Below the pieces are notes generated by a model that worked only from the letters and a program-made list of their open reading frames with translations, searched no databases and was not told where the DNA came from. From positions 1 to 64,000 of the forward strand of contig SECN01000016.1 of NCBI GenBank assembly GCA_004173515.1: a stretch of DNA of 64,000 bases, written 5' to 3'. The translations under genes were made by a program, and so were the position numbers. Below, piece by piece: positions 36,810-51,834 of the stretch; position 1 is the first letter of the stretch; each line of letters starts with the position of its first letter. The DNA comes from Myxococcaceae bacterium. Lineage in GTDB: Bacteria; Myxococcota; Myxococcia; Myxococcales; Myxococcaceae.

Positions 36810-37793
36810 TCAGCCCTTCCTCGCGCGCCTGGAAGCAGCCGTCAGGGACAGGGCGCGATAGGCGGGGAAGGAGTCCGTGCCCTCGTGGCCCCGGGCCAGC
36901 TCGGCGTACACGTCCGGGTCGCAGATGAGGTCGTGCGTATAGAAGTGGGACATGGCGTTGGCGAAGCCCCGCTTGAAGTGCTCGATGCCGTCCCCCGGAC
37001 GGAGGCCACCGCCCAGGTGCACCGGCGCCTCGAGCTTCGCGGAGAGCTCCGCCAGCACCGGGTACTCATTCTTCGCCGGCGAATGCATCAGGTACGCGTC
37101 CGCCGTGCCCCCGATGAAGTGGTGCAGGTGGCCGTCACTGAGGACCGCGAGCGCGGAGGAGGCGATGGCGCCATCCGGTGCGCGCGTGGTCACCAGCCAG
37201 GCGAAGCCGCAGGTGAACACCTCCTCGAACCACGCATCCGTGAAGGAGTACCGGGCCTCCGCCTGGTTGCGGGCCAGGGTCTGCCGGTAGACCGACTTGA
37301 GCCCCTCGCGCTGCTCCGCCGTGGACTCCTTCGCGGGCACGTACGTGCTGACGTAGCCCAACCGGGTGTTGCGGCGGATGTCCGCGGCGTGGTCGGCCCG
37401 GAAGTTCATCGGCTGGCTGCTGTCGATGAGGCACACCTCGGAGCGAAGCCGTGGGCCCGCGAAGCAGCACGGCCCGCCAATCCGGTCGCGAACGAAGATG
37501 CTGACCAGCTCCGTGCCCCTCCAGTCGATGGCGTCCGGGGGCACCTCGCTCAAGCCGTTCAGCTCCGCGCCGGGAAACCCATACGGTGACACCGCGTCCC
37601 GGTAGCGCGTCCCTTCGATGGCCCGCACGATGAGCGGCACCCGCAGCGCCCGGCCCTCCCCGTCCTCCACGATGAGGCTGTGCGTGACACCCTCGGCCTT
37701 CAGGTGCTGCTCCGACCGGAAGTAATCCGAGGAGCAGGCCCTCTGCCCTTCGTCCGGAACGAGGACGGCCCTCCACTGGGTCCTGGGTTGCAT
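36810..37793 (-). CDS. GNAT/FemAB-type acyltransferase, paralogue of 48762-49712
   Basis: A 327-residue soluble protein with two linked GNAT-like halves. It shares long blocks with the protein at 48762-49712: DAVSPYGFPG, DWRGTELVSIFVRDR, GGTADAYLMHSPAKN, LGGGLRPGDGIEHFKRGFAN. The arrangement (LVPD at the start, AYR near the end) is the same, so they are paralogues. Acetyltransf_6 proteins near polysaccharide genes usually acylate a nucleotide-amino sugar or lipid-linked sugar. Start ATG 37793 has GGGAGGAAACGAC upstream. It leads the two-gene unit with the 35939-36808 gene and is divergent from the OPX gene by 231 bp. Confidence 0.8.
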   Translation of the reverse strand: MQPRTQWRAVLVPDEGQRACSSDYFRSEQHLKAEGVTHSLIVEDGEGRALRVPLIVRAIEGTRYRDAVSPYGFPGAELNGLSEVPPDAIDWRGTELVSIFVRDRIGGPCCFAGPRLRSEVCLIDSSQPMNFRADHAADIRRNTRLGYVSTYVPAKESTAEQREGLKSVYRQTLARNQAEARYSFTDAWFEEVFTCGFAWLVTTRAPDGAIASSALAVLSDGHLHHFIGGTADAYLMHSPAKNEYPVLAELSAKLEAPVHLGGGLRPGDGIEHFKRGFANAMSHFYTHDLICDPDVYAELARGHEGTDSFPAYRALSLTAASRRARKG

Positions 37794-38024: not shown

Positions 38025-39149
38025 ATGAGGCAAATCCTCCTTATCGCCCTGGGACTGTGTGCAAGTGCATGCGCCTGGGGCCCGGGCATGCACATGGACG
38101 AGGATGCCTTCCGGGAGCGGTACGCCGGAAAGGCAGACGCGGGCGATGATGCCTTCGAGATCGTCCCCATCGACGCGTCCCTGCTGAGCCGGCAGCAGGA
38201 GGCGCGTCGGCAGGCCCGTCCCGCCTCCCTGAAGGATCCGCTGGCCCAGGTGGCGGTGGACTATGACTACCGGGTGAGCGCCCATGACGTGCTGAGCGTC
38301 ATCGTCTGGGACCACCCGGAGCTCACCATCCCCGCGGGCGAGTTCCGCTCCGCCGAGGCCACCGGCCATCCGGTGGCGGCGGACGGGACGATGTTCTACC
38401 CCCACGTGGGCGTCATCCCGGTGGCGGGCAAGACGCTGCGGGACATCCGCGAGCTGCTCACGCAGAAGCTGGCCGGCGTCATCGAGCGGCCCCAGTTGGA
38501 TGTGCGCGTGGTGGGCTTCCGGGGCCAGAAGGTCCAGGTGACGGGAGAGGTGGTGGCGCCCGGAAGCCTGCCCATCACCGACGTGCCCCTGCGCGTGCAG
38601 GACGCCATCAGCCAGGCCCGCGGCTTCGGCCCGGAGGCGGACCTGCGCACCGTCACGCTCAGCCGGGCGGGCGCCACCTTCAACCTGGACCTGCAGGCCC
38701 TCTATGAGCAGGGGGACGTCAGCCAGAACTGGCTGCTCACGGACGGCGACATCCTCAACGTCGCGGACCGCAACCGCAACAAGGTCTTCGTGCTGGGCGA
38801 GGTGCGCAAACCCTCCTCCCGCCTGATGGTGAAGGGGCGGATGACGCTGGCGGAGGCCATTGGCGACAGCGAGGGGTTTGATCCGCTGACCTCCAACCCG
38901 GGGCGCATCTACGTCATCCGGGGCAACTTCAACCGGCCTTCCATCTACAAGCTCGACGCCAGCTCCCCGGACGCGCTGCTGCTCGCGACCCAGTTCCAAT
39001 TGCAACCCCACGACGTCGTCTTCGTCTCCGCCCATGACCTGACGCGCTGGAATCGCATCATCCAGCAGATCCAGCCGACAGTTCAGCTGCTCTGGCAGGC
39101 AGTGGATATCGGAGACAGAACCATCATCCTCAACGACCCGAATCCATGA
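38025..39149 (+). CDS. Outer-membrane polysaccharide export protein (OPX, Wza-like)
   Basis: A 374-residue lipoprotein (signal LLIALGLCASAC, lipid Cys16). The poly-export domain starts with VDYDYRVSAHDVLSVIVWDH and includes DGTMFYPHVGVIPVAGKTLRDIR-type PES sequence, followed by two SLBB domains (KVQVTGEVVAPGSLPITDVP and KVFVLGEVRKPSSRLMVKGR). The C-terminus has an amphipathic helix (WNRIIQQIQPTVQLLWQAVD) as in Wza, which forms the outer-membrane pore. It moves the finished polysaccharide out of the cell. The stop overlaps the co-polymerase start (ATGA at 39146), coupling the two partners. Confidence 0.95.
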   Translation: MRQILLIALGLCASACAWGPGMHMDEDAFRERYAGKADAGDDAFEIVPIDASLLSRQQEARRQARPASLKDPLAQVAVDYDYRVSAHDVLSVIVWDHPELTIPAGEFRSAEATGHPVAADGTMFYPHVGVIPVAGKTLRDIRELLTQKLAGVIERPQLDVRVVGFRGQKVQVTGEVVAPGSLPITDVPLRVQDAISQARGFGPEADLRTVTLSRAGATFNLDLQALYEQGDVSQNWLLTDGDILNVADRNRNKVFVLGEVRKPSSRLMVKGRMTLAEAIGDSEGFDPLTSNPGRIYVIRGNFNRPSIYKLDASSPDALLLATQFQLQPHDVVFVSAHDLTRWNRIIQQIQPTVQLLWQAVDIGDRTIILNDPNP

Positions 39150-41317
39150 CGCGAACCCCCGACACCGAAGATGAGCTGGGATTGGGTGGCTGTCTGGCCA
39201 TCCTGGGCGAGCGCCGGCAGGCCATCGTCACGACCGTGGCGCTGACGCTGTTCGTGGGAGGGCTGTACCTGCTCGTGGCGACGCCGGTGTATCGCGCGAA
39301 CGCCGTGCTCCAGATTGAACAGAAGGGCAGCAGCCTGGGCCAGTTGGATGAGCTGCTCTCGGATGCGCCGGGCGTCGCGGCCACGGAGATGGAGGTCCTC
39401 AACTCGCGGGCCCTGCTGGGACGGGTGGCGGATGCCCTGCGGCTGGGCGTGTCCGCCGAACCCCGCTACTTCCCCGTGCTGGGCCCAGCGCTCGCCCGCG
39501 CCCATGAAGGGCCGGACCTGGCGCCCGTCCCCTGGTGGGGCCGGGACGTCTACGCCTGGGGCGGGGAGCGGCTCCAGGTGGAGCGGCTCAACGTGCCCGA
39601 GGCGCTGGAGGACCTCCCGCTCACCCTGGTGGCGGAGGCCTCCGGCGCGTACACCCTGCTGGACCCCGACGCGGAAGTGCTGCTCCACGGACAGGTCGGC
39701 ACCGTCGCCACGCCGCCGCCGGGCGCCGGGCACGAGGTGGAGCTGAGCGTCACCGAACTGCACGCCCGCCCGGGGACCCGGTTCCGGGTGATGCGCCGCT
39801 CGCGGCTCGCGGTGGTGGAGCAATTGCAGCGCACGCTGCGCCTGAGCGAGAAGGGCGCCGGCACCGGCGTGCTCAACCTGACGCTGGAGGGGCCCGACCC
39901 CCGGGCGGCCACCGCGACGCTCCAGGCCCTGGCGGAGGCGTATGTCCTCACCAACGTGGAGCGCCGCAGCGAGGAGGCGGGCCGCACGCTGAGCTTCCTC
40001 GACAGCCAGCTGCCCGGCCTGCGTCGGGGATTGGACCAGGCGGAGGCCGCCCTGCGCGACTACCGCATGGGCAAGGGCAGCGTGGACCTGGGGATGGAGG
40101 TCCAGGCCATCCTCAACCGCAGCGTGGAGCTGGAGAAGTCCATCTCGGAGCTCTCCCTGGAGCGCTCGGAGCTGCGACAGCGCTTCACCGAACACCACCC
40201 GCTGCTCGTCGCCACCGGCAGCAAGCTCGCGCGCCTGCGGGCGGAGCGCACCGGGCTCACCACCCAGCTCAAGGGCATGCCCAACGCGGAGCTGGTGTCC
40301 GCGCAGCTCACGCGCGACGTGAAGGTCGCCAATGAGCTGTACCTCCAGCTCAACAACAAGGCGCAGGAGTACCGGGTGCTCAAGTCGAGCACCATCACCA
40401 ACGCGCGCATCATCGACGCGCCCGTGGCGACGCGCGTCCCGGTGCGGCCCGCGAGGCTGGACGTGCTCGCGGTCAGCCTGGTGCTGGGGCTCACCCTCGG
40501 CGTCGCGCTCGCCTTCACGAAGCAGGCGCTCCAGCCGGGCGTGACGAACCCCGTCGCCCTGGAGAAGGCGCTCGGAAGGCCCGTCCATGCCAGCCTGCCC
40601 CTGGGCCCGGACCGCCCGCCGCGCGCCCCCGGGCGGCCCTCCATCCTCGCGCGCGTCCACCCCCGCGACCGCACCACCGAGAGCGTGCGCGGCCTGCGGA
40701 CCCGGCTCCAGTTGGCGCTCAAGGACGCGCCCAACAACCGCATCGTCCTCACGGGGACGGGCCCGGGCGCGGGCGCGTCCTTCGTCGCGCTCAACCTCGC
40801 GTGGGTGCTGGCGGAGGCCGGCCGGCGCGTCCTGCTGGTGGACGCGAACCTGCGCGGAGGGTGGCTGCACCGCTGCTTCCCGGACGCGCGCGCGCCGGGC
40901 CTGGCGGAGGTGCTGCGTGGCACTGTCCCCCTGGAGCAGGCGGTGCTGGAGGAGGCCGGGCCCCGTCTGTCGTTCCTCGGCTCGGGGGAGCTTCCGCCGG
41001 ACCCCGCGGAGCTGCTGTCCGGCGAGCGGTTCACCGCGCTCGTGGCGCACCTGTCCTCCCGCTACGACGTCGTCGTCTTCGACACGCCCTCCATCCTCGC
41101 GGTGACGGACGCGGCGCTCGTGGGCCGGCACGCGGGCGTGAGCCTCGCCGTGGTGCGCTCGGGCGTGCACCCGCTGCGCGAGGTGGCCGCGGCGCTGCAC
41201 CGCTTGGAACAGGACGGCGTGGCGGTGCAGGGCGTCGTCCTCAACGGCGTGCCGCGCTCCCGGTCCGGGCGCGCGGTGAGCGGCATCTACCAGTACGACT
41301 ACCCGGCCGGGAGCTGA
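39146..41317 (+). CDS. Wzc-type polysaccharide co-polymerase with altered kinase P-loop
   Basis: A 723-residue PCP-2a protein. N-terminal membrane helix (IVTTVALTLFVGGLYLLVAT) and Wzz motif (PVYRANAVLQIEQKGS), a long periplasmic coiled coil (SVELEKSISELSLERSELRQ), second membrane helix (LDVLAVSLVLGLTLGVALAF), and a cytoplasmic BY-kinase domain. Walker A reads GTGPGAGAS (537-545): the invariant Lys is Ala544. Walker A' VLLVDANLRGG and Walker B YDVVVFDTPS are kept. The C-terminus has only YQYDYPAGS as a Tyr cluster. Without the Lys, ATP hydrolysis and autophosphorylation should fail, so it may work as a structural co-polymerase or rely on a separate kinase elsewhere. Coupled to the OPX gene upstream; Wzy starts 8 bases after. 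Confidence 0.93.
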   Translation: MTRTPDTEDELGLGGCLAILGERRQAIVTTVALTLFVGGLYLLVATPVYRANAVLQIEQKGSSLGQLDELLSDAPGVAATEMEVLNSRALLGRVADALRLGVSAEPRYFPVLGPALARAHEGPDLAPVPWWGRDVYAWGGERLQVERLNVPEALEDLPLTLVAEASGAYTLLDPDAEVLLHGQVGTVATPPPGAGHEVELSVTELHARPGTRFRVMRRSRLAVVEQLQRTLRLSEKGAGTGVLNLTLEGPDPRAATATLQALAEAYVLTNVERRSEEAGRTLSFLDSQLPGLRRGLDQAEAALRDYRMGKGSVDLGMEVQAILNRSVELEKSISELSLERSELRQRFTEHHPLLVATGSKLARLRAERTGLTTQLKGMPNAELVSAQLTRDVKVANELYLQLNNKAQEYRVLKSSTITNARIIDAPVATRVPVRPARLDVLAVSLVLGLTLGVALAFTKQALQPGVTNPVALEKALGRPVHASLPLGPDRPPRAPGRPSILARVHPRDRTTESVRGLRTRLQLALKDAPNNRIVLTGTGPGAGASFVALNLAWVLAEAGRRVLLVDANLRGGWLHRCFPDARAPGLAEVLRGTVPLEQAVLEEAGPRLSFLGSGELPPDPAELLSGERFTALVAHLSSRYDVVVFDTPSILAVTDAALVGRHAGVSLAVVRSGVHPLREVAAALHRLEQDGVAVQGVVLNGVPRSRSGRAVSGIYQYDYPAGS

Positions 41318-41324
41318 GCCTCCC

Positions 41325-42611
41325 GTGAGCTTCATCCGACGCACAGGCCTGGGCTTCATCGCGGCGCTCTACGTGCTCGCCGGCCGCTGGGGCTTCCACC
41401 GGCTGACGCAGGCAATGCCGGAGCCCAACTTGTTCCTGGAGCTGCGGCTGTGGATCGTCATGGGCGGGCTGGTGTTGTCCTCCGTGGGGCTGCTCCTGCA
41501 CGCCACGCGCGGCGCGAGGCCCGGTGAGACGCGCTTCGACCCGCCGCTCGTCGCGGCGCTGGTGGGGTTCTTCGGCTACCTGTGCGCCAGCGCCGCCTGG
41601 GCCCCCGCCCCGGACTTCGCCCTCCAGAAGGTCTACGACGTGGGCCTGCTGTGGGTGATGAGCGTGGGCTTCGGACTGGCCGCGCTCCGCCAGCCCGCGC
41701 CCCGGGTGCTGGATGCGTTCTGGGGCATCATCGTGCTGGCCACGGGGCTGCTCGCGCTCACCGGCGTGCTGCAACTGCTGAGCGGTGGCGGCGGCGCGCG
41801 GCTGGCCGTGATGGGGGGCGGCCCCAACATCTTCGCGCGGCTCATGGGGCTGTTCGCGCTGGGCGCGCTGTACTTCTGGTACTGGCGCGGACAGGCGTGG
41901 CTGTGGATTCCCCTGGCGGCCACCGGCGTCATCCTCGCGCTGCTCACGGGCTCGCGCGGGGGCACGGCCGCCATCCTCGCGGGCGTCGCCACCTGCCTCG
42001 TGGTGGGGCGCGTGCCCCTGCGCCGGCTGCTGCTGCTGACGCTGCTGGCCTCGGTGGCCATCACGGCCGTGACGCTGTTCTCCCCGCTGGGCGAAGCGCT
42101 GACCCACTCCGTGGAGGAGCGCTTCCTGCGCCTGACCCTGAACTACGAGAAGGGCGCGGGCGGCACGGGCAGCAATGAAGGCAAGGTGTACCTGTCCGGA
42201 CGGGACGTCCTCTACGCCTCCGCCCTCCAACTGGGACGCGACCACCCGGTGACCGGGGCGGGGCTGGCCGCGTTCCCCGGGCTGGGCCTGGGCGTGTACC
42301 CGCACAACATCTTCCTCGAGGTGTTCTGCGAGGGTGGCACCGTGGGGCTGCTGTTCTTCGCGGGCGTCGTGGCCACCTTCCTGCGCTCGGCATTCCTGCG
42401 ACGCCACGGCCTGGACGGCGCCACCGTGGGCGCGGCGGTGCTGGTGCTGCTGGGAAGCCAGTCCAGCGGAGACCTCTATGACAGCCGCGCCCTCTTTCTC
42501 TTGATGGTGATGGCCTCCTGCACCGCCGTCGCGGGACGCGGGAGCGCAGCCGCCGCCCCTCCTCTTCCTCACGCCCCCCTCCTTCCCGCGATGCCAGGAG
42601 CCACCCGATGA
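41325..42611 (+). CDS. Wzy-like polysaccharide polymerase / O-antigen ligase family
   Basis: A 428-residue integral membrane protein with about 11 helices and the Wzy_C (PF04932) region: the conserved large loop holds SGRDVLYASALQLGRDHPVT ... YPHNIFLEVFCEGGTVGLLF. In Wzx/Wzy systems this enzyme joins flipped repeat units in the periplasm; ligases of the same fold attach the chain to lipid A. With OPX and PCP genes in the same operon a polymerase is more likely. The GTG start at 41325 has GGGAGC upstream. Its stop overlaps the GT start (ATGA). The C-terminus is an Ala/Pro-rich tail. Confidence 0.88.
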   Translation: MSFIRRTGLGFIAALYVLAGRWGFHRLTQAMPEPNLFLELRLWIVMGGLVLSSVGLLLHATRGARPGETRFDPPLVAALVGFFGYLCASAAWAPAPDFALQKVYDVGLLWVMSVGFGLAALRQPAPRVLDAFWGIIVLATGLLALTGVLQLLSGGGGARLAVMGGGPNIFARLMGLFALGALYFWYWRGQAWLWIPLAATGVILALLTGSRGGTAAILAGVATCLVVGRVPLRRLLLLTLLASVAITAVTLFSPLGEALTHSVEERFLRLTLNYEKGAGGTGSNEGKVYLSGRDVLYASALQLGRDHPVTGAGLAAFPGLGLGVYPHNIFLEVFCEGGTVGLLFFAGVVATFLRSAFLRRHGLDGATVGAAVLVLLGSQSSGDLYDSRALFLLMVMASCTAVAGRGSAAAAPPLPHAPLLPAMPGATR

Positions 42612-43834
42612 AGATCGTCTACCTGCACCAGTACTTCAACACGCCCACCATGCACGGGGGCACGCGCTCCTATGAGCTCGCGCGCCGGTTGGTGGGCATG
42701 GGCCACGAGGTCCACATGGTGACCTCCGACACCCGGCCCCAGGCCCAGGCGCCCTCGCGCGGCTGGCGCGAGTCCAACGAGAGCGGCATCCAGGTGCACT
42801 GGCTGCCGGTGCCCTACAACAACGCGATGAACTACGCGGACCGCATCCGCGCCTTCGGCCACTTCGCCGTCAACTCCACGCGCCGTGCGGCGCAGTTGTC
42901 CGGCGATGTCTTCTTCGCCACCAGCACGCCCTTGACCATCGCGGTGCCGGGCATCTTCGCCTCGCGCTGGAACAGCCGGCCCATGGTCTTCGAGGTGCGC
43001 GACCTGTGGCCCGCCATCCCCATCGCGGTGGGCGCGCTCAAGAGCCGCTCCGCCATCCTGGCCGCGCAGATGCTGGAGAAGGCCGCTTACGCGGGCGCGG
43101 CGCACATCGTCGCGCTGTCGCCGGGCATGAAGGCCGGCGTGGTGGCGGCGGGCGTGTCGTCGGAGAAGGTCACCATCATCCCCAACCTCTGCGACCCGGA
43201 GCGCTTCCAGGTGCCGCCGTCCGCGGGCGCGGAGTTCCGCGCGAAGTACGCGTGGCTGGGCGACCGGCCCATGGTGCTGTACGCGGGCACGCTGGGGCTG
43301 GTGAACGGCGTGAGCTACCTGGTGCGGCTGGCGAAGGAGATGCTGACGCGCGACCCGGAGGTGAGGTTCGTCATCATGGGCCAGGGCCGCGAGGAGGCGG
43401 ACCTGCACGCGCTGGCGGAGAAGCTGGGCGTGAAGGACCACAACCTCTTCTTCCTGCCCAGCGTGCCCAAGGCGCAGGTGCCCGCGGTGCTCAGCGCGGC
43501 CACCCTCGCCACGTCGCTCTTCACCGACGTGGACGGCATGCAGGACAACTCCGCCAACAAGTTCTTCGACGCGCTCGCCGCGGGCCGGCCGCTCGCGCTC
43601 AACTACGGCGGCTGGCAGGCGGAGATGCTGGACCAGGAGCCCTTCGGCCTGCGCCTGCCGCCCCGGGACCTCCCCGCCGCGGCGGAGATGCTGGCCAAAA
43701 AGCTGCGCGACCCGAAGTGGCTCAAGGAGGCCGGAGAGCTCGCGGGCCGCCTGGGGCGTGAGCGCTACTCCGCGGACACCGCGGCCCTGCGACTCTCCGA
43801 AGTGCTGCAGCGCGCGGCGGCGGCGCGCGCGTGA
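42608..43834 (+). CDS. GT4-family glycosyltransferase
   Basis: A 408-residue GT-B enzyme of the GT4 type, WbuB-like: N-terminal KIVYLHQYFNTPTMHGGTRS with the acceptor Gly loop, EVRDLWPAIPIAVGALKS, ALSPGMKAGVVAAGVSSEKV, IPNLCDPERF, donor domain PMVLYAGTLGLVNGVSYLVR, VRFVIMGQGREEADL and the ASLFTDVDGMQDNSANKFFD-like region with the sugar-nucleotide contact EAL... replaced by DNSANKFFDALAAGRP. No membrane helix. It probably adds one sugar of the repeat unit on the cytoplasmic face. ATG 42608 overlaps the Wzy stop; its own stop overlaps the flippase start. Confidence 0.93.
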   Translation: MKIVYLHQYFNTPTMHGGTRSYELARRLVGMGHEVHMVTSDTRPQAQAPSRGWRESNESGIQVHWLPVPYNNAMNYADRIRAFGHFAVNSTRRAAQLSGDVFFATSTPLTIAVPGIFASRWNSRPMVFEVRDLWPAIPIAVGALKSRSAILAAQMLEKAAYAGAAHIVALSPGMKAGVVAAGVSSEKVTIIPNLCDPERFQVPPSAGAEFRAKYAWLGDRPMVLYAGTLGLVNGVSYLVRLAKEMLTRDPEVRFVIMGQGREEADLHALAEKLGVKDHNLFFLPSVPKAQVPAVLSAATLATSLFTDVDGMQDNSANKFFDALAAGRPLALNYGGWQAEMLDQEPFGLRLPPRDLPAAAEMLAKKLRDPKWLKEAGELAGRLGRERYSADTAALRLSEVLQRAAAARA

Positions 43835-45156
43835 TGAAGCGCTCGGTGGGGGGCAACTTCGCCTGGTCGCTCTCCGCCGGGCTCATCTACGCGGTCGCCC
43901 AGTGGGGCGTGCTGGTGGCCTTCGCCCGGCTGGGCACGATGGAGGAGCTGGGCGACTTCGCGCTCGCCCTGGCCATCACCGCGCCCGTGCTGCTGATGGC
44001 GCGCATGCAGATGCGCACGCTCCAGGCCACCGACGCCCGGGGCAGCTTCGGCTTCGAGCACTACCTGGGCCTGATGGTGCTCAACGTGCTCGCTGGCATC
44101 GCGGTGTGCTGCGCCATCGGGTGGGCGGTGGCGCCCTCGCCCCGCGCGGCGGCGGTCGTCGCGATGGTGGCGCTGGCCAAGGGCTTCGAGGCCGTGAGCG
44201 AGGTGTTCTACGGCGCGCTCCAGAAGCGGGAGCGGCTGGCGCTCATCGCCCGCTCCACCATCGCCAAGAGCGCGCTGTCGGTGGTGGGGGTGGCCGTGAC
44301 GCTCTGGCTCACGCGCAGCCCCGTGGCCGCGGCGGCCGCGCTGGCGCTCTCCTGGGCCATCGTGCTCTTCCTCTTCGACGCGCAGGCCTTCCGCGGGGAG
44401 TTTCCCACCGCGCATCCCTGGCGCCCCCTGTGGCAAACGCCGTGGCGCGAGCAGGGCGGCCGCGTGAAGGCCCTCTTCCTCTTGTGCTACGTGCTGGGCA
44501 TCACCGCGCTCTTGGGCGCGCTCCGGCCCAACATCCCGCGCTACCTGCTGGAGGCGCACTCCGGCCAGGCGGAGCTGGGCATGTACGCGGCGCTCGCGTA
44601 CTTCACGGCGCTGGGCGGCCGGGTGGTGCACTCGCTGGGGCAGGCCGTGAGCCCCCGGCTGGGCCGCCACCACGCGGCGGGTGAGCAGCGCCGCTTCGGC
44701 AGGATGCTCGCGGGCTTCACGGGGGTCGCGGCGCTGGTGGGCCTGTGCGCCATCGCCGGCGCGGCCTTGCTGGGACGCTGGGCGCTGACGCTCTTCTACG
44801 GGGCCGCCTACGCCCAGAACCTGGAGCTGTTCGTCTGGCTGATGGGCGCCGCAGCGCTGGAGTACGTCTGCGTGAGCCTCCAGATTGGCCTCACCGCGGC
44901 GCGGGAGCTGAAGGGCCAGGTGGTCCTGCTCGTCGCGTCCGTGACGGTGGTGGCGCTGGGCAGCGCGTGGTGGGTGCCCACGGTGGGGCCGGTGGGGGCC
45001 GCGTGGGCGCTGGGGCTCGGGTGGGTGACGGAGCTGTCCGGCAGCGTGTGGCTCGCGGTGCGGGCCTGGCGGCGGATGGGCCGCGAGGACGTCACGGCGC
45101 CGGCCTCCGTCGCCGCGGGCCTGCCCGTGGATGCTCGGGAGCGGACAGCGGGCTGA
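43834..45156 (+). CDS. Wzx-type flippase (MOP superfamily)
   Basis: A 440-residue protein with 12-14 membrane helices in the polysaccharide-biosynthesis MATE-like pattern (FAWSLSAGLIYAVAQWGVLV at the start, ALALSWAIVLFLFDAQAF, VKALFLLCYVLGITALLGAL, GFTGVAALVGLCAIAGAALL). Wzx proteins flip undecaprenyl-linked repeat units across the inner membrane. It starts at ATG 43834 within the stop of the GT gene (TGATG) or at GTG 43831 one codon earlier. A charged C-terminal tail ends the protein. The next gene is 118 bp downstream on the same strand. Confidence 0.9.
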   Translation: MKRSVGGNFAWSLSAGLIYAVAQWGVLVAFARLGTMEELGDFALALAITAPVLLMARMQMRTLQATDARGSFGFEHYLGLMVLNVLAGIAVCCAIGWAVAPSPRAAAVVAMVALAKGFEAVSEVFYGALQKRERLALIARSTIAKSALSVVGVAVTLWLTRSPVAAAAALALSWAIVLFLFDAQAFRGEFPTAHPWRPLWQTPWREQGGRVKALFLLCYVLGITALLGALRPNIPRYLLEAHSGQAELGMYAALAYFTALGGRVVHSLGQAVSPRLGRHHAAGEQRRFGRMLAGFTGVAALVGLCAIAGAALLGRWALTLFYGAAYAQNLELFVWLMGAAALEYVCVSLQIGLTAARELKGQVVLLVASVTVVALGSAWWVPTVGPVGAAWALGLGWVTELSGSVWLAVRAWRRMGREDVTAPASVAAGLPVDARERTAG

Positions 45157-45273
45157 GTCCCGGGGGACGTGGTGGCCTTTCGCGCGGCTCCCTACGCTCC
45201 CAAGGCTCCGAGCGCGCGGCGTCCTCGGAAGCGGCGGCACCCGTCCCGACGCCCGCGCCAGGGAGCACGACAC

Positions 45274-46020
45274 ATGCGAAGACAGACAGGGGCCGGGCGG
45301 TGGCTCAAGCGGTGCATCGACGTGGGCGCCGCGGGGGCGGGGCTCGTGTGCCTGTCCCCGGTGATGGCCGCCACGGCGCTCTTCGTCCGCGCGACGATGG
45401 GCCGCCCCGTCCTCTTCCGCCAGCAGCGGCCGGGGCTGGGCGGCAAGCTGTTCACGGTGCTCAAGTTCCGCTCGATGCTGGACGCGACGGACGCGGCCGG
45501 CAACGTGCTCCCGGACGAGCAGCGCCTCACGTGGGCCGGGCGCCTGCTGCGCTCCACCAGCCTGGATGAGCTGCCGCAGTTGTGGAACGTGCTCCGGGGC
45601 GACATGAGCCTCGTCGGGCCGCGCCCGCTGCTCGTGGAGTACCTGCCGCGCTACTCCGAAGAACAGGCGCGGCGCCACGACGTGCTCCCGGGCGTCACCG
45701 GCTGGGCGCAGATCAACGGCCGCAACGCCATCAGCTGGGACCAGCGCTTCCGGCTGGACGTCTGGTACGTGGACCACTGGAGCCTGGCGCTGGACGCGAA
45801 GGTGCTCGCGCTGACGCTGCTGCGCGTCGTGCAGCGCCAGGGCGTCTCCTTCGTGAGCGAGGCCACCCTGAACAAGTTCATGGGCAACGCCCCGCCGGAG
45901 TCCAACGTCGTGGCCCTCCGGCCGGGCGCGGACGGCCCGCTCAGCTCCCCGTCCGGCGAACCGGATCCCGGGCCACGGCGCGCACCACCTCCACCACCCG
46001 CTCAAGCTCCGGGGTCGTGA
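45274..46020 (+). CDS. Initiating phosphoglycosyltransferase (PglC/WcaJ-like)
   Basis: A 248-residue monotopic phosphoglycosyltransferase, the enzyme that loads the first sugar phosphate on undecaprenyl phosphate. A single hydrophobic N-terminal re-entrant helix (VGAAGAGLVCLSPVMAATAL), then RPGLGGKLFTVLKFRSMLDA, the catalytic Asp-Glu pair in SLDELPQLWNVLRGDMSLVG, PRPLLVEYLP and PGVTGWAQINGRN. No N-terminal CoA-binding-like domain, so it is the short (PglC) type. GGGAG before ATG 45274. The family ends near LNKFMGNA; the last 40 residues (Pro/Arg-rich) overlap the aminotransferase gene on the other strand by 80 bp, and may be a non-conserved tail. Confidence 0.93.
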   Translation: MRRQTGAGRWLKRCIDVGAAGAGLVCLSPVMAATALFVRATMGRPVLFRQQRPGLGGKLFTVLKFRSMLDATDAAGNVLPDEQRLTWAGRLLRSTSLDELPQLWNVLRGDMSLVGPRPLLVEYLPRYSEEQARRHDVLPGVTGWAQINGRNAISWDQRFRLDVWYVDHWSLALDAKVLALTLLRVVQRQGVSFVSEATLNKFMGNAPPESNVVALRPGADGPLSSPSGEPDPGPRRAPPPPPAQAPGS

Positions 46021-47092
46021 GGTTGGAGCCGGAGGGCAGGCACAGCCCATGCTGGAACAGGTCCTCCGCCACGCTTCCGCGCCGCCGCTCGAAGGACGCG
46101 AAGACGGGCTGCAGGTGCATGGGCTTCCACACCGGCCGCGCTTCGATGTTCTCCCGCTCGAGCGCGGTGCGCACCGTCTCCCGGTCCGCGCCGAACGCCT
46201 CCGGATCGATGGTGACGGTCGTCAGCCAGCGCGTGTGCCGGCCCCACGGCGCCTCCGGCATGAACGCGATGCCGGGCAGGTCCGCGAAGGCCTTCGCGTA
46301 GAACGCGTGGTTCGCGCGCCGCGCGAGCACCCGGTCCTCCAGCACCAGCAACTGGCCCCGGCCAATGGCGGCCAGCACGTTGCTGAGCCGGTAGTTGTAG
46401 CCCACCTCCGAGTGCTGGTAGTGCGGCGCCGGGTCGCGCGCCTGCGTCGCCAGCTTCAGGGCGTGCTGGATGAGCTCCCCGTCGGAGGACACCAGCATCC
46501 CGCCCCCGGAGGTGGTCAGGATCTTGTTGCCATTGAAGGAGTAGATGCCCACGCGGCCGAACGTGCCCGGGGCCCTTCCCTTGTAGGAGCTGCCCAGGGC
46601 CTCCGCGGCGTCCTCCACCACCGGCACGCCATAGCGGTCGCAGGCGGCCAGCAGCGGATCCAGGTCCGCGCTCTGGCCATACAGGTGCACCACGATGACC
46701 GCGCGCGGCAGGCGTCCCACGCGGGCGCGCCGGGCCAGCTCCTCCTCCAGGAGGGCCGGATCCATGTTCCAGGAGGCGCGCTCGCTGTCGATGAAGACGG
46801 GCGACGCGCCCAGGTAGCGGATGGGGTTCACGGAGGCGGAGAAGGTGAGCGTGCTCACCAGCACGTCGTCTCCGGGCCCCACGCCCACCAGTTGCAGGGC
46901 CAGGTGCAGCGCGGCCGTGCCGGAGCTCAGCGCCAGCGCGTGCGGGCTGCCCACGCACCGGGCGAACTCCTCCTGGAACGCGTCCACATGCGGGCCCAGC
47001 GGGGCAATCCAGTTGCTCGCGAACGCGTCGTCGACATAGCGACGCTCGAGCGTGCCCATGTGGGGCGAGGACAGGTAGATGCGGGAGGACAT
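45941..47092 (-). CDS. DegT/DnrJ/EryC1/StrS sugar aminotransferase
   Basis: A 383-residue PLP enzyme that makes amino sugars on nucleotide-diphosphate sugars. N-terminal IYLSSPHMGTLERRYVDDAF and SNWIAPLGPHVDAFQEEFAR; ALSSGTAALHLALQLVGVGP; HLYGQSADLDPLL; the PLP lysine K190 in YSFNGNKILTTSGGG; VGYNYRLSNVLAAIGRGQL; C-terminal RPVWKPMHLQ. The PglE/WbpE-type motif order indicates conversion of a 4-keto or 3-keto sugar; with the 4,6-dehydratase at 49813 the likely product is a 4-amino-4,6-dideoxy sugar. ATG 47092 is preceded by codons that are poorly conserved. Converges with the phosphoglycosyltransferase and overlaps it by 80 bp. Confidence 0.93.
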   Translation of the reverse strand: MSSRIYLSSPHMGTLERRYVDDAFASNWIAPLGPHVDAFQEEFARCVGSPHALALSSGTAALHLALQLVGVGPGDDVLVSTLTFSASVNPIRYLGASPVFIDSERASWNMDPALLEEELARRARVGRLPRAVIVVHLYGQSADLDPLLAACDRYGVPVVEDAAEALGSSYKGRAPGTFGRVGIYSFNGNKILTTSGGGMLVSSDGELIQHALKLATQARDPAPHYQHSEVGYNYRLSNVLAAIGRGQLLVLEDRVLARRANHAFYAKAFADLPGIAFMPEAPWGRHTRWLTTVTIDPEAFGADRETVRTALERENIEARPVWKPMHLQPVFASFERRRGSVAEDLFQHGLCLPSGSNLTTPELERVVEVVRAVARDPVRRTGS

Positions 47093-47209: not shown

Positions 47210-48535
47210 CTACAAGCCGGACAGCACCTTCGCGTTGAGGGCACCGTTGCCGTAGAACTGCGTGTTGTTGCCGACCTTGTGCGTCTCCAGACGGCGCTGG
47301 AGGTTGGCGTCATAGCGGCCCAGCTTCATCAGGCCGTCGTTGAACCAGCCCGTGCCCGTGCCCGTCCCGTCCACGTAGTTGGCGTAGCGGGTGGCCGAGG
47401 GCCAGATGACGGTGTTGAGCGTCACGACGAACTTCTGGATGTCCGCGGCCGTCCACTCCATGCCCGCGTCGCGGGCCTCCACGATGTAGGCCATGACACC
47501 ATTGCCGTGGGCCACATCCTGCCCGGGACGCGAGCGGGAGGCCCACTCGGCGGCCCAGAAGTACGCGGCGGGGTTGACCATGCTGGTCATCAACTGACCG
47601 CGCAGCGAGGACGTGTTGTTCGGCATGTCGCGGTTGATGTTGTTGAAGACCGTCAGGTAGGTCGCCTTCTTCGTGGCGTCCGGGGTCATGCGCGACAGGT
47701 CCATGGCGATGTACGCCCAGTGCGACGCCATGTGCGTATTGACGCGATAGATGTAGCTGTTCGGGCTGCGCTTGTACCACTTCTCGAACATGTTCTTTTC
47801 GGTGAACGCCAGCAGCCTGTCGTACTGCGCGCGATAGGACGCGTTGTTGTAGAGGGCAGGCGTCTCACGGATGACGCGCAGCATGCGCGTCACGTACCGC
47901 CAGCAATAGCTTTCGAACAGGGGCACTTCCTGGCCCAGCGTGTCGGAGCGCGCGGAGGCCCAGCCCAGGTAACCATCCTTGAACTGGCTTCTGGGCAGCG
48001 ACGCGGACGACTTCGCGTGACCGACCATGTTGTTCACATAGAGCAGCGCCCGGTCCAGGTACTGCGTCTTGCCCGTGGCCCGGTACATCGCGGTGTTGCC
48101 ATCGATGCCGTAGGACAGGTCATAGAACTGCCAGCTGTCCAACGAGTTGCTCTTGGGCAGGAAGCTGGAGGTGTGCTCGGAGTTCCAGCGGTTCAGGAAC
48201 AGCGTCTCCCACGCCGCGACGGTGCGAAGCGCCGTGGCGGCCTGGGCGGTGGTGCCCAGCGCCTCCGGGGCGGGCGCGGCGGACTCCGCCAGGTCCGTCT
48301 CCGGGAGGGAGGGAGCAAGCGCATCCGCCTCCGGGAAAGAGGGAGCAGGCGTCTGTGTTTCAGGGTTGACGGCTTCGGGGGTGCCTTGCGCGTTTTCTCC
48401 GCTGGTGTCGACCGGGGCCGTCTCGCCGGAGGTGACTTCCGGATTGGGGCCACAGGCGCCCCCGACCAGAAGGGCGAGCGACAGCAGGGACGACAGGGCA
48501 AGACCAGGCGTGTTGCGACGACGAGATTCCGACAT
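47210..48535 (-). CDS. Alpha-toroid lipoprotein, candidate polysaccharide-acting enzyme
   Basis: A 441-residue lipoprotein (signal SLLSLALLVGGACG, lipid Cys28). A Glu/Pro/Ala-rich tether to about residue 100 is followed by a helical domain with the character of (alpha/alpha)-toroid glycosidases and lyases: WNSEHTSSFLPKSNSLDSWQ, FYDLSYGIDGNTAMYRATGK, VPLFESYCWRYVTRMLRVIR, NTHMASHWAYIAMDLSRMTP, DVAHGNGVMAYIVEARDAGM. The many His, Tyr, Asp and Glu in helix-end loops suit a sugar cleft, but no assigned PL or GH signature is recognised. Its place inside the polysaccharide locus suggests trimming or release of the polymer at the outer membrane. ATG 48535. Confidence 0.7.
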   Translation of the reverse strand: MSESRRRNTPGLALSSLLSLALLVGGACGPNPEVTSGETAPVDTSGENAQGTPEAVNPETQTPAPSFPEADALAPSLPETDLAESAAPAPEALGTTAQAATALRTVAAWETLFLNRWNSEHTSSFLPKSNSLDSWQFYDLSYGIDGNTAMYRATGKTQYLDRALLYVNNMVGHAKSSASLPRSQFKDGYLGWASARSDTLGQEVPLFESYCWRYVTRMLRVIRETPALYNNASYRAQYDRLLAFTEKNMFEKWYKRSPNSYIYRVNTHMASHWAYIAMDLSRMTPDATKKATYLTVFNNINRDMPNNTSSLRGQLMTSMVNPAAYFWAAEWASRSRPGQDVAHGNGVMAYIVEARDAGMEWTAADIQKFVVTLNTVIWPSATRYANYVDGTGTGTGWFNDGLMKLGRYDANLQRRLETHKVGNNTQFYGNGALNAKVLSGL

Positions 48536-48761
48536 CAGTGGGTCCCGTGGGGTAGGTCCGATGTACTTCCCGGTGCGCTACCCTGTTGTGAGAACGCCGG
48601 AGTGCGTTCGCAGAACCGCCCAAAGGGTTGAGAACCCCACCAAATTCCTTTGTGTTTAGACAAACAAAGAGAATGCCTGCCCGTTTGTCTTTGGTACCAG
48701 GAGACGTGGGCCCGGCTGCCTGAGCCGGTGAGTGACGCATGCGGAAGCCGGGGGTACGAAA
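48536..48761. promoter_or_regulatory. Divergent promoter region with an inverted repeat
   Basis: 226 bases between the toroid-lipoprotein gene (minus) and the acyltransferase gene (plus). It contains an unusually AT-rich stretch (about 48640-48700) with AGACAAAC (48658-48665) mirrored by GTTTGTCT (48683-48690), 17 bases between arms. Spacing and location fit an operator or the binding site of a dimeric regulator for both genes. Confidence 0.45.
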
Positions 48762-49712
48762 ATGAGGAGGGTGCAAGCGAGCGCCATGCTGGTTCCCGAC
48801 GCGGGAGCCTCGGCGTTGTCGGAGGAGTACTTCCGCTCCACGCACCACCTGCGGGCCGAACGGGTGACCCACACCCTGGTCATCCAGGGCCACGCGGAGG
48901 GCGCGCTGCGCCTGCCACTCATCGTGCGCCCCATTGAAGGGACGCCGCACCATGATGCGATTTCCCCCTACGGGTTTCCCGGGGGCGTGCTGGACGGGCT
49001 GCGGGAGGTGCGCAAGCAGGACGTGGACTGGAGGGGCACGGAGCTGGTCAGCATCTTCGTGCGCGACCGGGTCCAGGGGCCCTTCTGCTTCGCGGAGCCA
49101 ACCGCGCGCAACGAGGTGTTCTTCGTGGACCCGCGTCTGCCCTTGACCCTCAAGGACATGCACCGGCGCCACCAGCGCCGCAACGTCCGGGAGGGCTTCG
49201 TGAGCAGCGTGTGCGCTTCGCGCGACGCGCCCCGCGAGGAGCGCCAGGGCTTCCTGGACGTGTACCGGCAGACCATGGTGCGCGACCGGGCCTGCCTCCG
49301 GTACTTCTTCTCCGACACCTACTTCGAGGAGCTGTTCGCCTCACCCGGCGCGTGGCTCGCGACGACGCGCGCGCCGGACGGACAGGTCGCCTCCAGCGCG
49401 CTGCTCGTGCGCAGTGATGGCCTGCTGCACTACTACCTGGGCGGCACGGCGGATGCGCACCTGGCGCGCTCTCCGGCGAAGAACGTCTTCGGCGCGATGA
49501 TCGACCTGGGCATGCGGCTGGGGCTGCCCCTCCACCTGGGCGGCGGTGTCCTGCCGGGCGACGGGCTGGAGGACTTCAAGCGGGGCTTCGCCAACGCGAG
49601 CGCCCGCACCCACACGCATGAAATCGTCTGCGAGCCGGGGCTGTACTCACGGCTGACGGAGGGGCTGGTACCCGGCCGCTTCTTTCCGGCCTACCGCGCG
49701 CCCCGGAACTAG
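48762..49712 (+). CDS. GNAT/FemAB-type acyltransferase, paralogue of 36810-37793
   Basis: A 316-residue soluble protein, the second copy of the acyltransferase-like family in this locus. Shared blocks with the 327-residue paralogue: EYFRSTHHLRAERVTH, DAISPYGFPG, DWRGTELVSIFVRDR, GAWLATTRAPDGQVASSALL, GGTADAHLARSPAKN, LHLGGGVLPGDGLEDFKRGF. ATG 48762 is used because its distance to LVPD matches the paralogue; GTG 48732 and ATG 48786 (after GAGGAGGG) are alternatives. It is followed by a strong two-way terminator. Likely transfers an acyl or aminoacyl group to a sugar of the polymer; substrate unknown. Confidence 0.8.
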   Translation: MRRVQASAMLVPDAGASALSEEYFRSTHHLRAERVTHTLVIQGHAEGALRLPLIVRPIEGTPHHDAISPYGFPGGVLDGLREVRKQDVDWRGTELVSIFVRDRVQGPFCFAEPTARNEVFFVDPRLPLTLKDMHRRHQRRNVREGFVSSVCASRDAPREERQGFLDVYRQTMVRDRACLRYFFSDTYFEELFASPGAWLATTRAPDGQVASSALLVRSDGLLHYYLGGTADAHLARSPAKNVFGAMIDLGMRLGLPLHLGGGVLPGDGLEDFKRGFANASARTHTHEIVCEPGLYSRLTEGLVPGRFFPAYRAPRN

Positions 49713-49812: not shown

Positions 49813-51834
49813 TCAGGCGCTCACGATCTGCTCGGTCGCCAGGGGAAGCGCACCGGCCCGCGCGCCGCCCGTCATCGGCGTCCCGCGCGCGGGGGCCTCC
49901 GGCGACAGGGGGGAGCTGCCCGGCACGATGACGTTGCGGGGCTTGGACGGGGTGTAGGAGGGGATGAGGTCCTGGAGCGCGAGCTTCACGGCGCGGACGT
50001 CCCCGGCACGGGCCGCCCCCTCCAGGCGGACCAACTGGCGGTCGAAGTCCTGGGGCGGCGCGGGGCTGCGCGCCACCTTGATGCGGTTGCGGACCTGCTG
50101 CGTGAGCTCCTCTTCGTCGCTCAGCAGCGTCTCCTCCAGCTTCTCCCCCGGGCGCAGCCCCGTGTAGATGATGGGGATGTCCTTGTCCGGCACCAGGCCC
50201 GTCATGGTGATCATGTTCGCGGCCAGCTCCGCGATCCGCACGGGCGCGCCCATGTCCAGGATGCACAGCTCCCCGTAGCCGCCCAGGCCCGCCAGCACCA
50301 CCAGCCCCACGGCCTCCGGGATGATCATGAAGTAGCGGGTGCAATCCGGGTGCGTCACGGTGACGGGGCCGCCCGCCTGGATCTGCTGCTTGAACAGGGG
50401 CACCACGCTGCCCGCGGAGCCCAGCACGTTGCCGAAGCGGACAGCGCAGAAGATGGTGCGCGAGGTCGCGGCGATGTCCCGGATGACCATCTCCGCCAGC
50501 CGCTTGGACGCGCCCATCACCGACGAGGGCATGACGGCCTTGTCGGTGGAGATGAGCACGAAGCGCTCCGCGCCACAGGCGTCCGCCATGCGCGCGACGT
50601 TCTGCGTGCCGAAGACGTTGTTCTTGATGGCCTCCTCGGGGGAGTCCTCCATCAGCGGCACGTGCTTGTGCGCGGCGGCGTGGAACACGTACTGCGGCCG
50701 GAACTCCTGGCCGATGCGCATCATCCGGTCCGGGTCCCGGATGTCCGCCACGATGGAGCTCACCGGCAGCCCCGGATGGCGCGCCTGGAGCTGGCGCACG
50801 AGCAGGTAGAGTTCGTTCTCGTTGATGTCCACCACCACCAGCGAGGCGGGCCCGTGCCCGGCCACCTGGCGCGTGATTTCACTGCCGATGGAGCCCGCGC
50901 CGCCGGTGACGAGGATGCGGCGGCCGGAGACCAGCCGGTGGACCTCCTGGTGGTCGAAGGCGATGGCGTCCCGGGGCAGCAGGTGCTCCGGGCTGAGGTC
51001 GTGCAGCATCGCCGCGGAGATCTTCTCATCCAGGTAGGCGAACGAGGCCGGGATGATCTTGAAGCTGACGCTCTGGTGCCGGCAAAGGCTCAGGATGTGC
51101 CGGGTGCGCTCCGGCGACAGGCGCGGGATGGCGATGAGCACCTGCGTCACCCGGTGCTTCGTCATCAGCTCCGGCAGCGCGTCGAGGGTGCCCAGCACCG
51201 GCTTGCCATCGAGGAAGGTGCCCTGCTTGCCCGGGTCGTCGTCCACCAGTCCAATGACATGCCAGGGGCTGCCCCGGCCGCGCATCAGGTCGCGCAGCAG
51301 CAGGTCGCCCGCGCTGCCCGCGCCCACGATGAGGGTGCGCTGGGCGCCGTCCGCCCGCGAGCGGCGCTGCTCCAGGTACCACTGCCGGGCCATCCGGGGC
51401 GAAAAGCGGTGGATGCCCAACAGCGTGGTGGTGGCGAAGAACTCGAGCGCGACCACCTGGCCCGGCAGCGCCCGGGAGAAGAGCGCCAGGCGCAGGAATT
51501 CGAACACGATGCTGGCGATGACATTGGCCATCACCAGACGCACGGCCTCGTTGATGCCGGAGCGGCGGAACGACCAACGGTGCAATCCCAGCCAGACCAG
51601 GGTGGCCAGGCGCACCGTCAGCAGCAGGGCCAGCGCGCGCGGGAAGACCTCACGGCCTCCGGCTGTCAGCGCGCCGTCGAAGCGCGTCAGCATCGCGAGG
51701 AGGAATGCTCCGGAGAGGAGGACCGCGTCCACCAGCAGCATGCGCAGCGAGCAGAACAGGGGCGAACTTCTCGGTGCGCCCTCCACGGCGACAGCCGTGG
51801 TGCCCGGTCCTTCGACCTTCGAGGAACTCTTCAT
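49813..51834 (-). CDS. Membrane-bound NDP-sugar 4,6-dehydratase (WbpM/CapD/FlaA1 family)
   Basis: A 673-residue protein with four N-terminal membrane helices (RMLLVDAVLLSGAFLLAML, ALALLLTVRLATLVWLGLH and two more), an NAD-like CoA-binding domain (QRTLIVGAGSAGDLLLRDLM), and the C-terminal SDR dehydratase: GRRILVTGGAGSIGSEITRQ, AAAHKHVPLMEDSPEEAIKN, then LISTDKAVMPSSVMGASKR, the Ser-Met-Lys triad of this subfamily, in place of Ser-Tyr-Lys. It forms UDP-4-keto-6-deoxy-GlcNAc-type sugars for the aminotransferase. The long C-terminal tail (SYTPSKPRNVIVPGSSPLSP) is not conserved. ATG 51834 has GGGGGAGG upstream. Divergent from the histidine phosphatase with 382 bp between. Confidence 0.93.
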   Translation of the reverse strand: MKSSSKVEGPGTTAVAVEGAPRSSPLFCSLRMLLVDAVLLSGAFLLAMLTRFDGALTAGGREVFPRALALLLTVRLATLVWLGLHRWSFRRSGINEAVRLVMANVIASIVFEFLRLALFSRALPGQVVALEFFATTTLLGIHRFSPRMARQWYLEQRRSRADGAQRTLIVGAGSAGDLLLRDLMRGRGSPWHVIGLVDDDPGKQGTFLDGKPVLGTLDALPELMTKHRVTQVLIAIPRLSPERTRHILSLCRHQSVSFKIIPASFAYLDEKISAAMLHDLSPEHLLPRDAIAFDHQEVHRLVSGRRILVTGGAGSIGSEITRQVAGHGPASLVVVDINENELYLLVRQLQARHPGLPVSSIVADIRDPDRMMRIGQEFRPQYVFHAAAHKHVPLMEDSPEEAIKNNVFGTQNVARMADACGAERFVLISTDKAVMPSSVMGASKRLAEMVIRDIAATSRTIFCAVRFGNVLGSAGSVVPLFKQQIQAGGPVTVTHPDCTRYFMIIPEAVGLVVLAGLGGYGELCILDMGAPVRIAELAANMITMTGLVPDKDIPIIYTGLRPGEKLEETLLSDEEELTQQVRNRIKVARSPAPPQDFDRQLVRLEGAARAGDVRAVKLALQDLIPSYTPSKPRNVIVPGSSPLSPEAPARGTPMTGGARAGALPLATEQIVSA

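Follow-up and report, generated by a model that had tools for sequence, protein, structure and literature searches.

The gene wzc at positions 39146-41317 of the window (the whole 64,000-nucleotide stretch of contig SECN01000016.1 that was analysed) probably encodes a co-polymerase of a Wzx/Wzy pathway in which the fused BY-kinase domain has turned into a pseudokinase and would act as an octamer scaffold without phosphorylation, as judged from comparative sequence analysis. Two catalytic residues of the domain were replaced, the parts expected to hold a ring together were conserved among orthologues, and no gene for the cognate phosphatase Wzb was detected beside the co-polymerase gene.

The co-polymerase and its gene cluster

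The open reading frame is a full-length Wzc (PCP-2a). The domain search detected WZC_N, Wzz and GNVR domains together with a C-terminal BY-kinase domain in its product, confirming the assignment as a Wzc-type co-polymerase in a preliminary description of this DNA. Its alignment with Wzc of E. coli K30 covered the full length (E about 1e-127), and Wzc structures were the best Foldseek matches of its AlphaFold2 model (mean pLDDT 80, pTM 0.50). The architecture is that of PCP-2a proteins, in which two TM helices flank a large periplasmic part and the BY-kinase fold is fused as a cytoplasmic domain, and Wza, Wzx, Wzy and the PGT are encoded alongside (Table 1). The source assembly is a Corallococcus-like draft of 10.2 Mb in 888 contigs.

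The genes are arranged in the order of wza-wzc-wzy-GT-wzx-PGT, and this block was syntenic throughout the clade described below. Because three Wzx/Wzy pathways, EPS, MASC and BPS, have been described in M. xanthus (PMC7310880) and the small genomes of genus g41 (Myxococcus/Pyxidicoccus-type) did not possess wzc of the studied cluster, the cluster appears to represent an additional pathway.

Several other genes in the window were recorded. The 310-aa protein encoded at 47210-48142 (-) was syntenic and 77-89% identical across the clusters of the clade, and gave no Pfam or NCBIfam match. Two proteins flanking the cluster (36810-37793, -; 48732-49712, +) were found at matching places in relatives and look like a diverged acyltransferase pair, one of them matching Acetyltransf_6 (GNAT/FemAB-like). 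The region 20950-22734 (-) encodes a GH18 protein that resembles chitinases and carries CBM5/12 together with two fibronectin III domains.

Table 1. Genes of the cluster and motifs of the Wzc protein, with positions in the window
Feature	Position	Strand	Remark
Wza-type outer-membrane polysaccharide export (OPX) protein	38025..39149	+	overlaps wzc start
wzc, PCP-2a polysaccharide co-polymerase with C-terminal putative BY-pseudokinase domain	39146..41317	+	723 aa
EX2RX2R oligomerisation motif (E512, R515, R518)	40679..40699	+	invariant across orthologues
Degenerate Walker A GTGPGAGAS, residues 537-545	40754..40780	+	A544 (GCG, 40775-40777) replaces catalytic Lys
Degenerate Walker A' D566-A-N568-L-R570	40841..40855	+	N568 (AAC, 40847-40849) replaces second Asp (E. 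coli D564)
Walker B VVVFDTPSI	41069..41095	+	D646 kept
E679, equivalent to tyrosine-pocket E675 of E. coli Wzc	41180..41182	+	invariant
Y715-Q-Y717-D-Y719 tail (YxY clamp)	41288..41302	+	Y715 and Y717 invariant across orthologues; Y719 lost in two
Wzy / O-antigen ligase-like polymerase	41325..42611	+	
GT4-family glycosyltransferase	42608..43834	+	
Wzx-like flippase	43831..45156	+	Polysacc_synt, slightly under Pfam cut-off
Polyprenyl-phosphate sugar-1-phosphate transferase (PGT)	45169..46020	+	
DegT/LegC-like sugar aminotransferase	45941..47092	-	syntenic in relatives
CapD/WbpM-like nucleotide-sugar 4,6-dehydratase	49813..51741	-	

Replacement of catalytic residues in the BY-kinase domain

Active BY-kinases are recognised by the lysine of GK[S/T] in Walker A, DxDxR in Walker A' and the aspartate in Walker B. 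The gap-free alignment with E. coli Wzc placed A544, N568 and E679 at the positions of K540, D564 and E675, respectively. The Walker A lysine is thus replaced by alanine and Walker A' reads DANLR, while the aspartate of Walker B (FDTP) is retained and invariant. The alanine and the intact Walker B agreed with the preliminary description, which had also regarded Walker A' as kept; the change of DxD to DAN is a second catalytic loss. N568 is considered to lie at an active-site position, since the distance of the docked tyrosine in simulations of E. coli Wzc was measured to D564 (PMC11986026). The sole lysine within residues 495-723 is K526, located outside the P-loop.

The C-terminal tail, which is rich in tyrosine in active BY-kinases, here contains only three tyrosines, of which Y715 and Y717 are invariant. 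The small tyrosine cluster noticed earlier is real, but it is unlinked to the loss of the lysine, as sister proteins that retain the lysine share the three-Tyr tail. How these tyrosines line up with those of E. coli Wzc is uncertain, the tails differing in length.

Distribution and order of the losses

The alignment and tree were constructed with 36 members, consisting of 19 Lys-less proteins and 17 other members of the family and order. All 19 orthologues of one group in which the motif was visible lacked the P-loop lysine, with Thr in 16 and Ala in 3, and the lysine was present in all 17 other members, a contrast far too regular to be due to chance. Both Lys and DxD were also present in Anaeromyxobacter, in the genome G023 and in Wzc proteins fetched from other phyla. 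Fourteen of the Lys-less orthologues belonged to Corallococcus, in which the gene was found in 15 of 16 genomes (P-loop visible in 14; 12 Thr and 2 Ala). The others came from three further Myxococcaceae genera, namely g15 (one genome, Ala), g8 (one, Thr) and g12 (three, Thr). Family-wide, 29 of 96 genomes carried the gene. The combination of Lys and DANLR was seen in six g41 genomes and two g16 genomes.

Asn568 was found in all 27 members of the DANLR clade without reversion, eight of which still had Lys, and the maximum-likelihood tree indicated a single origin of DANLR with branch support of 100/99. The Lys-less proteins formed one clade in the best tree with branch support of only 57/46, so that one to three losses of the lysine are possible. 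The codons at this site give the series AAG to ACG to GCG. The likely order of events was the cut of the tail to three tyrosines, Asp to Asn, Lys to Thr, and finally Thr to Ala, a step taken in three lineages of which the source genome represents one; the tail reduction was placed first because the sister protein L020 already has the three-Tyr tail along with both catalytic residues intact.

The g41 and g16 orthologues (among L115-L122; copies L038-L040), having kept Lys together with DANLR, may be intermediates with a half-dead kinase. Two paralogous Wzc proteins, L020 and L126, are encoded in G023, one with the three-Tyr tail and the other with a Tyr-rich tail, and Wzb lies about 12 kb from L126.

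Absence of Wzb and search for other kinases

At Anaeromyxobacter-type loci, Wzb (VCVGNICRSP ... DPY) is encoded just upstream of wza-wzc, and the distance from wzc was about 1.6-1.7 kb in L042, L043 and L044. The motif scan of fetched flanks detected wzb near wzc at 59 of 72 Lys-bearing loci and at none of 15 DANLR-clade loci (Fisher p about 1.4e-9, uncorrected for kinship and shorter flanks). The DANLR-clade loci without wzb included L034, L036, L038, L134-L139 and L141-L143. The absence is not specific to loci with the degenerate kinase, because Wzb was missing nearly family-wide, including genomes without the studied wzc; the protein search found a clear Wzb only in G023 among the 96 family genomes.

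Candidates for Wzb elsewhere in these genomes were rejected. The LMWPc (Pfam) matches in DANLR-clade genomes scored 33-72 bits against 118-128 bits for Wzb, and the LMW-PTP-family matches that were read in these genomes were ArsC-like or otherwise not Wzb. The single match of this family in the source genome (L127 1453-1869, -) was ArsC/LMW-PTP-like with a degenerate CX5R (CKQSAGSS), in which the position of the catalytic Arg is lost; its gene adjoins that of a TerC-like membrane protein. The search for CpsB/CapC phosphatases gave none.

The search of the source genome yielded no BY-kinase of the stand-alone type. Apart from the studied protein, a single BY-kinase exceeded the family cut-off, namely a BtkB-like Wzc encoded on contig C626. 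Its GKS and DTDMR motifs are intact, it showed 32% identity to the studied Wzc in the alignment over residues 415-703, and it presumably belongs to another pathway. The remaining matches, under the cut-off and MinD/ParA/Mrp-like, were rejected as stand-alone Wze-type kinases. The preliminary description had offered either a kinase acting in trans or the lack of kinase control; the latter is now better supported and the former less so, since Wzb is gone, a stand-alone kinase was not found and the BtkB-like Wzc is only distantly related.

It is nevertheless conceivable that a BY-kinase in trans, most likely the BtkB-like Wzc, phosphorylates the tail and that a phosphatase other than Wzb resets it, so that the phosphorylation cycle would survive with the fused domain dead. 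The invariance of Y715 and Y717 in all 36 tree members and the presence of an intact kinase in the genome would agree with this, as would the report that M. xanthus BtkA and BtkB are dephosphorylated by the PHP-type phosphatase PhpA, not by Wzb (PMC12004946). However, BY-kinases act on the tail of a neighbour inside the same ring, the candidate kinase is the distant one just described with no stand-alone enzyme beside it, and docking also accounts for the conservation of the tail. The evidence from M. xanthus further speaks against active kinases aiding the pseudokinase EcpK (PMC12004946). We therefore consider phosphorylation in trans rather unlikely.

Constraint on the kinase domain

The residues E512, R515, R518, P540, S545, D566, R570, D646, P648, E679, Y715 and Y717 were invariant in 19 of 19 Lys-less proteins, and Y719 was lost in two of them. 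Neither truncation nor frameshift was seen in orthologues not cut by a contig end. In the kinase domain, dN was lower than dS in every close pair compared. The branch-length ratio of the kinase to PCP parts under a fixed topology was 1.06 in Corallococcus and 0.96 in the Lys-bearing Anaeromyxobacter-type relatives, along with 0.78 in the other Thr clade, 0.48 in g41 and 0.73 as the tree average. Relaxed selection, hinted at by pairwise distances, was rejected on these branch lengths. With dN below dS and a ratio near that of the Anaeromyxobacter-type relatives, the kinase domain appears to be still constrained and is not plainly relaxed. P649 and P538, at positions of the tyrosine-pocket loops, were changed in Corallococcus.

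The stepwise loss of catalytic residues and the Corallococcus ratio above the tree average would suit a decaying domain that is mere dead weight, the periplasmic co-polymerase part working alone in a Wzz-like manner. This is very unlikely given the lack of disrupted reading frames, the invariance of ten functional residues in 19 of 19 proteins, dN below dS, and a rate similar to that of relatives with an intact catalytic site.

Still less probable is a kinase that remains active by a rearranged mechanism, another basic residue having replaced the P-loop lysine as in WNK kinases. Almost every Lys-less orthologue has a basic residue at positions 520 (Arg) and 526 (Lys/Arg), and Ser545 and Asp646, which bind Mg, are retained. 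These basic residues, however, do not look compensatory, because two of the Lys-bearing sisters already have R520 and the majority of them have K526; K526 is the only lysine of the domain and lies away from the P-loop, and the Walker A' aspartate was lost too. The search for a relocated catalytic lysine found no convincing gained basic residue.

A sequencing or assembly error at 40775-40777, thinkable for a single draft genome in 888 contigs, has practically no chance of explaining Ala544, as independent genomes including single-contig ones carry Thr or Ala at this site.

A proposed ring without a phosphorylation switch

In the standard model, Wzc has to cycle between a phosphorylated monomer and an unphosphorylated octamer. 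The K540M mutant of E. coli Wzc is an unphosphorylated octamer with the tail Y717 in the active site of the neighbour and Y715 bonded to E675, and the ring is broken by four phosphorylations (PMC8285477, PMC11986026). Autophosphorylation of the tail and dephosphorylation by Wzb were both reported to be essential for polymer production in E. coli (PMC8285477). The studied Wzc resembles the E. coli K30 autokinase and its K540M mutant (PDB 7nhr, 9exq) in the domains, EX2RX2R, Walker B, the tyrosine-pocket Glu and the Tyr tail, but it naturally lacks the equivalents of Lys540 and D564, has three tail tyrosines instead of five or more, and is encoded in a cluster without wzb.

From the losses, the conservation pattern, the cluster and the absence of wzb, we infer catalytic death, an octamer and the following mode of working. 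As the P-loop lysine and the second Walker A' aspartate are both gone, autophosphorylation would be impossible and the kinase domain would persist as a structural ring. The octamer may be kept in place against Wza and Wzy by contacts through EX2RX2R and by the YxY tail, which would dock into the neighbour's dead site and its tyrosine pocket. This clamp-held octamer would be permanently unphosphorylated, possibly with a nucleotide as structural ligand (the K540M structure contains ADP), and three tail tyrosines would be too few for the four-phosphate tipping point even when phosphorylated. Assembly and release would then be governed by contacts with Wza, Wzy and the growing polymer or by the bound nucleotide, not by tyrosine phosphorylation and Wzb. 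Since the E. coli capsule requires both phosphorylation and dephosphorylation, the release of the ring in Corallococcus would have to differ from that in E. coli.

Some points stand against such a scaffold. A locked octamer should not work in E. coli, where cycling was reported to be essential, and the strictly conserved tail fits phosphorylation in trans equally. The combination of Asp to Asn and Lys to Thr could leave trace activity, the P649 and P538 changes in Corallococcus could weaken docking, and the absence of Wzb extends beyond the DANLR clade. More tentatively, the phosphorylation cycle may have been dismantled stepwise (three-Tyr tail, phosphatase gone, Asp lost, Lys lost) with the YxY clamp kept, in which case the unphosphorylated octamer would be the working state and cycling would be dispensable for PCP-2a machines.

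Comparison with known BY-pseudokinases

BY-pseudokinases as such are already known (EcpK, HfsB and PssP2), and the studied domain shares with them a BY-kinase fold without catalytic residues, conserved here in orthologues. These precedents and the loss in Walker A', which probably predated that of the lysine, had been overlooked in the initial interpretation. EcpK of M. xanthus, in the same family, is a BY-pseudokinase proposed as a scaffold for the PCP-2 protein EpsV in the EPS pathway; it is stand-alone and lacks the three Walker motifs, the Tyr tail and several structural elements (PMC12004946). The studied Wzc is not of this type, as its domain is fused and retains the oligomerisation motif, Walker B and the tail. 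HfsB, which works with HfsA for the Caulobacter holdfast, has a BY-kinase-like domain without catalytic residues and is essential for its PCP-2 partner, but is stand-alone without a Tyr tail, as far as it is described in PMC12004946. PssP2 of Rhizobium combines a co-polymerase and an inactive BY-kinase-like domain in one chain, with a short periplasmic part and without Walker A, A', B and the Y-cluster (PMC4182512), whereas Walker B, the tail and WZC_N are kept in the studied protein. BtkB/WzcB of M. xanthus is a fused PCP-2a Wzc of the same family, but is reported to be catalytically active and belongs to a different lineage and pathway (about 32% identity); its homologue on C626 differs from the studied Wzc in the intact motifs. 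Further fused PCP-2 pseudokinases, SMc01795, VV1_2305 and others, are attributed to Cuthbertson et al. in PMC12004946. The studied tail-retaining fused version with living intermediates appears to be a novel form, although on comparison with the cited SMc01795 and VV1_2305 it may turn out to be just one more member.

The living intermediates, in which Lys is kept and the Walker A' Asp is lost, make the order of losses biochemically testable. The source organism is a harmless predatory myxobacterium of soil, and its family includes genera, Myxococcus among them, that are well established in the laboratory. A natural Wzc lineage without the kinase residues and a co-encoded phosphatase, with the ring parts conserved, separates the need for an octamer from the need for phosphorylation. 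In the best reading, the studied Wzc would correspond in nature to the K540M mutant made in the laboratory, and its ring probably functions with no phosphorylation switch, although such a switch is deemed essential in the textbook model.
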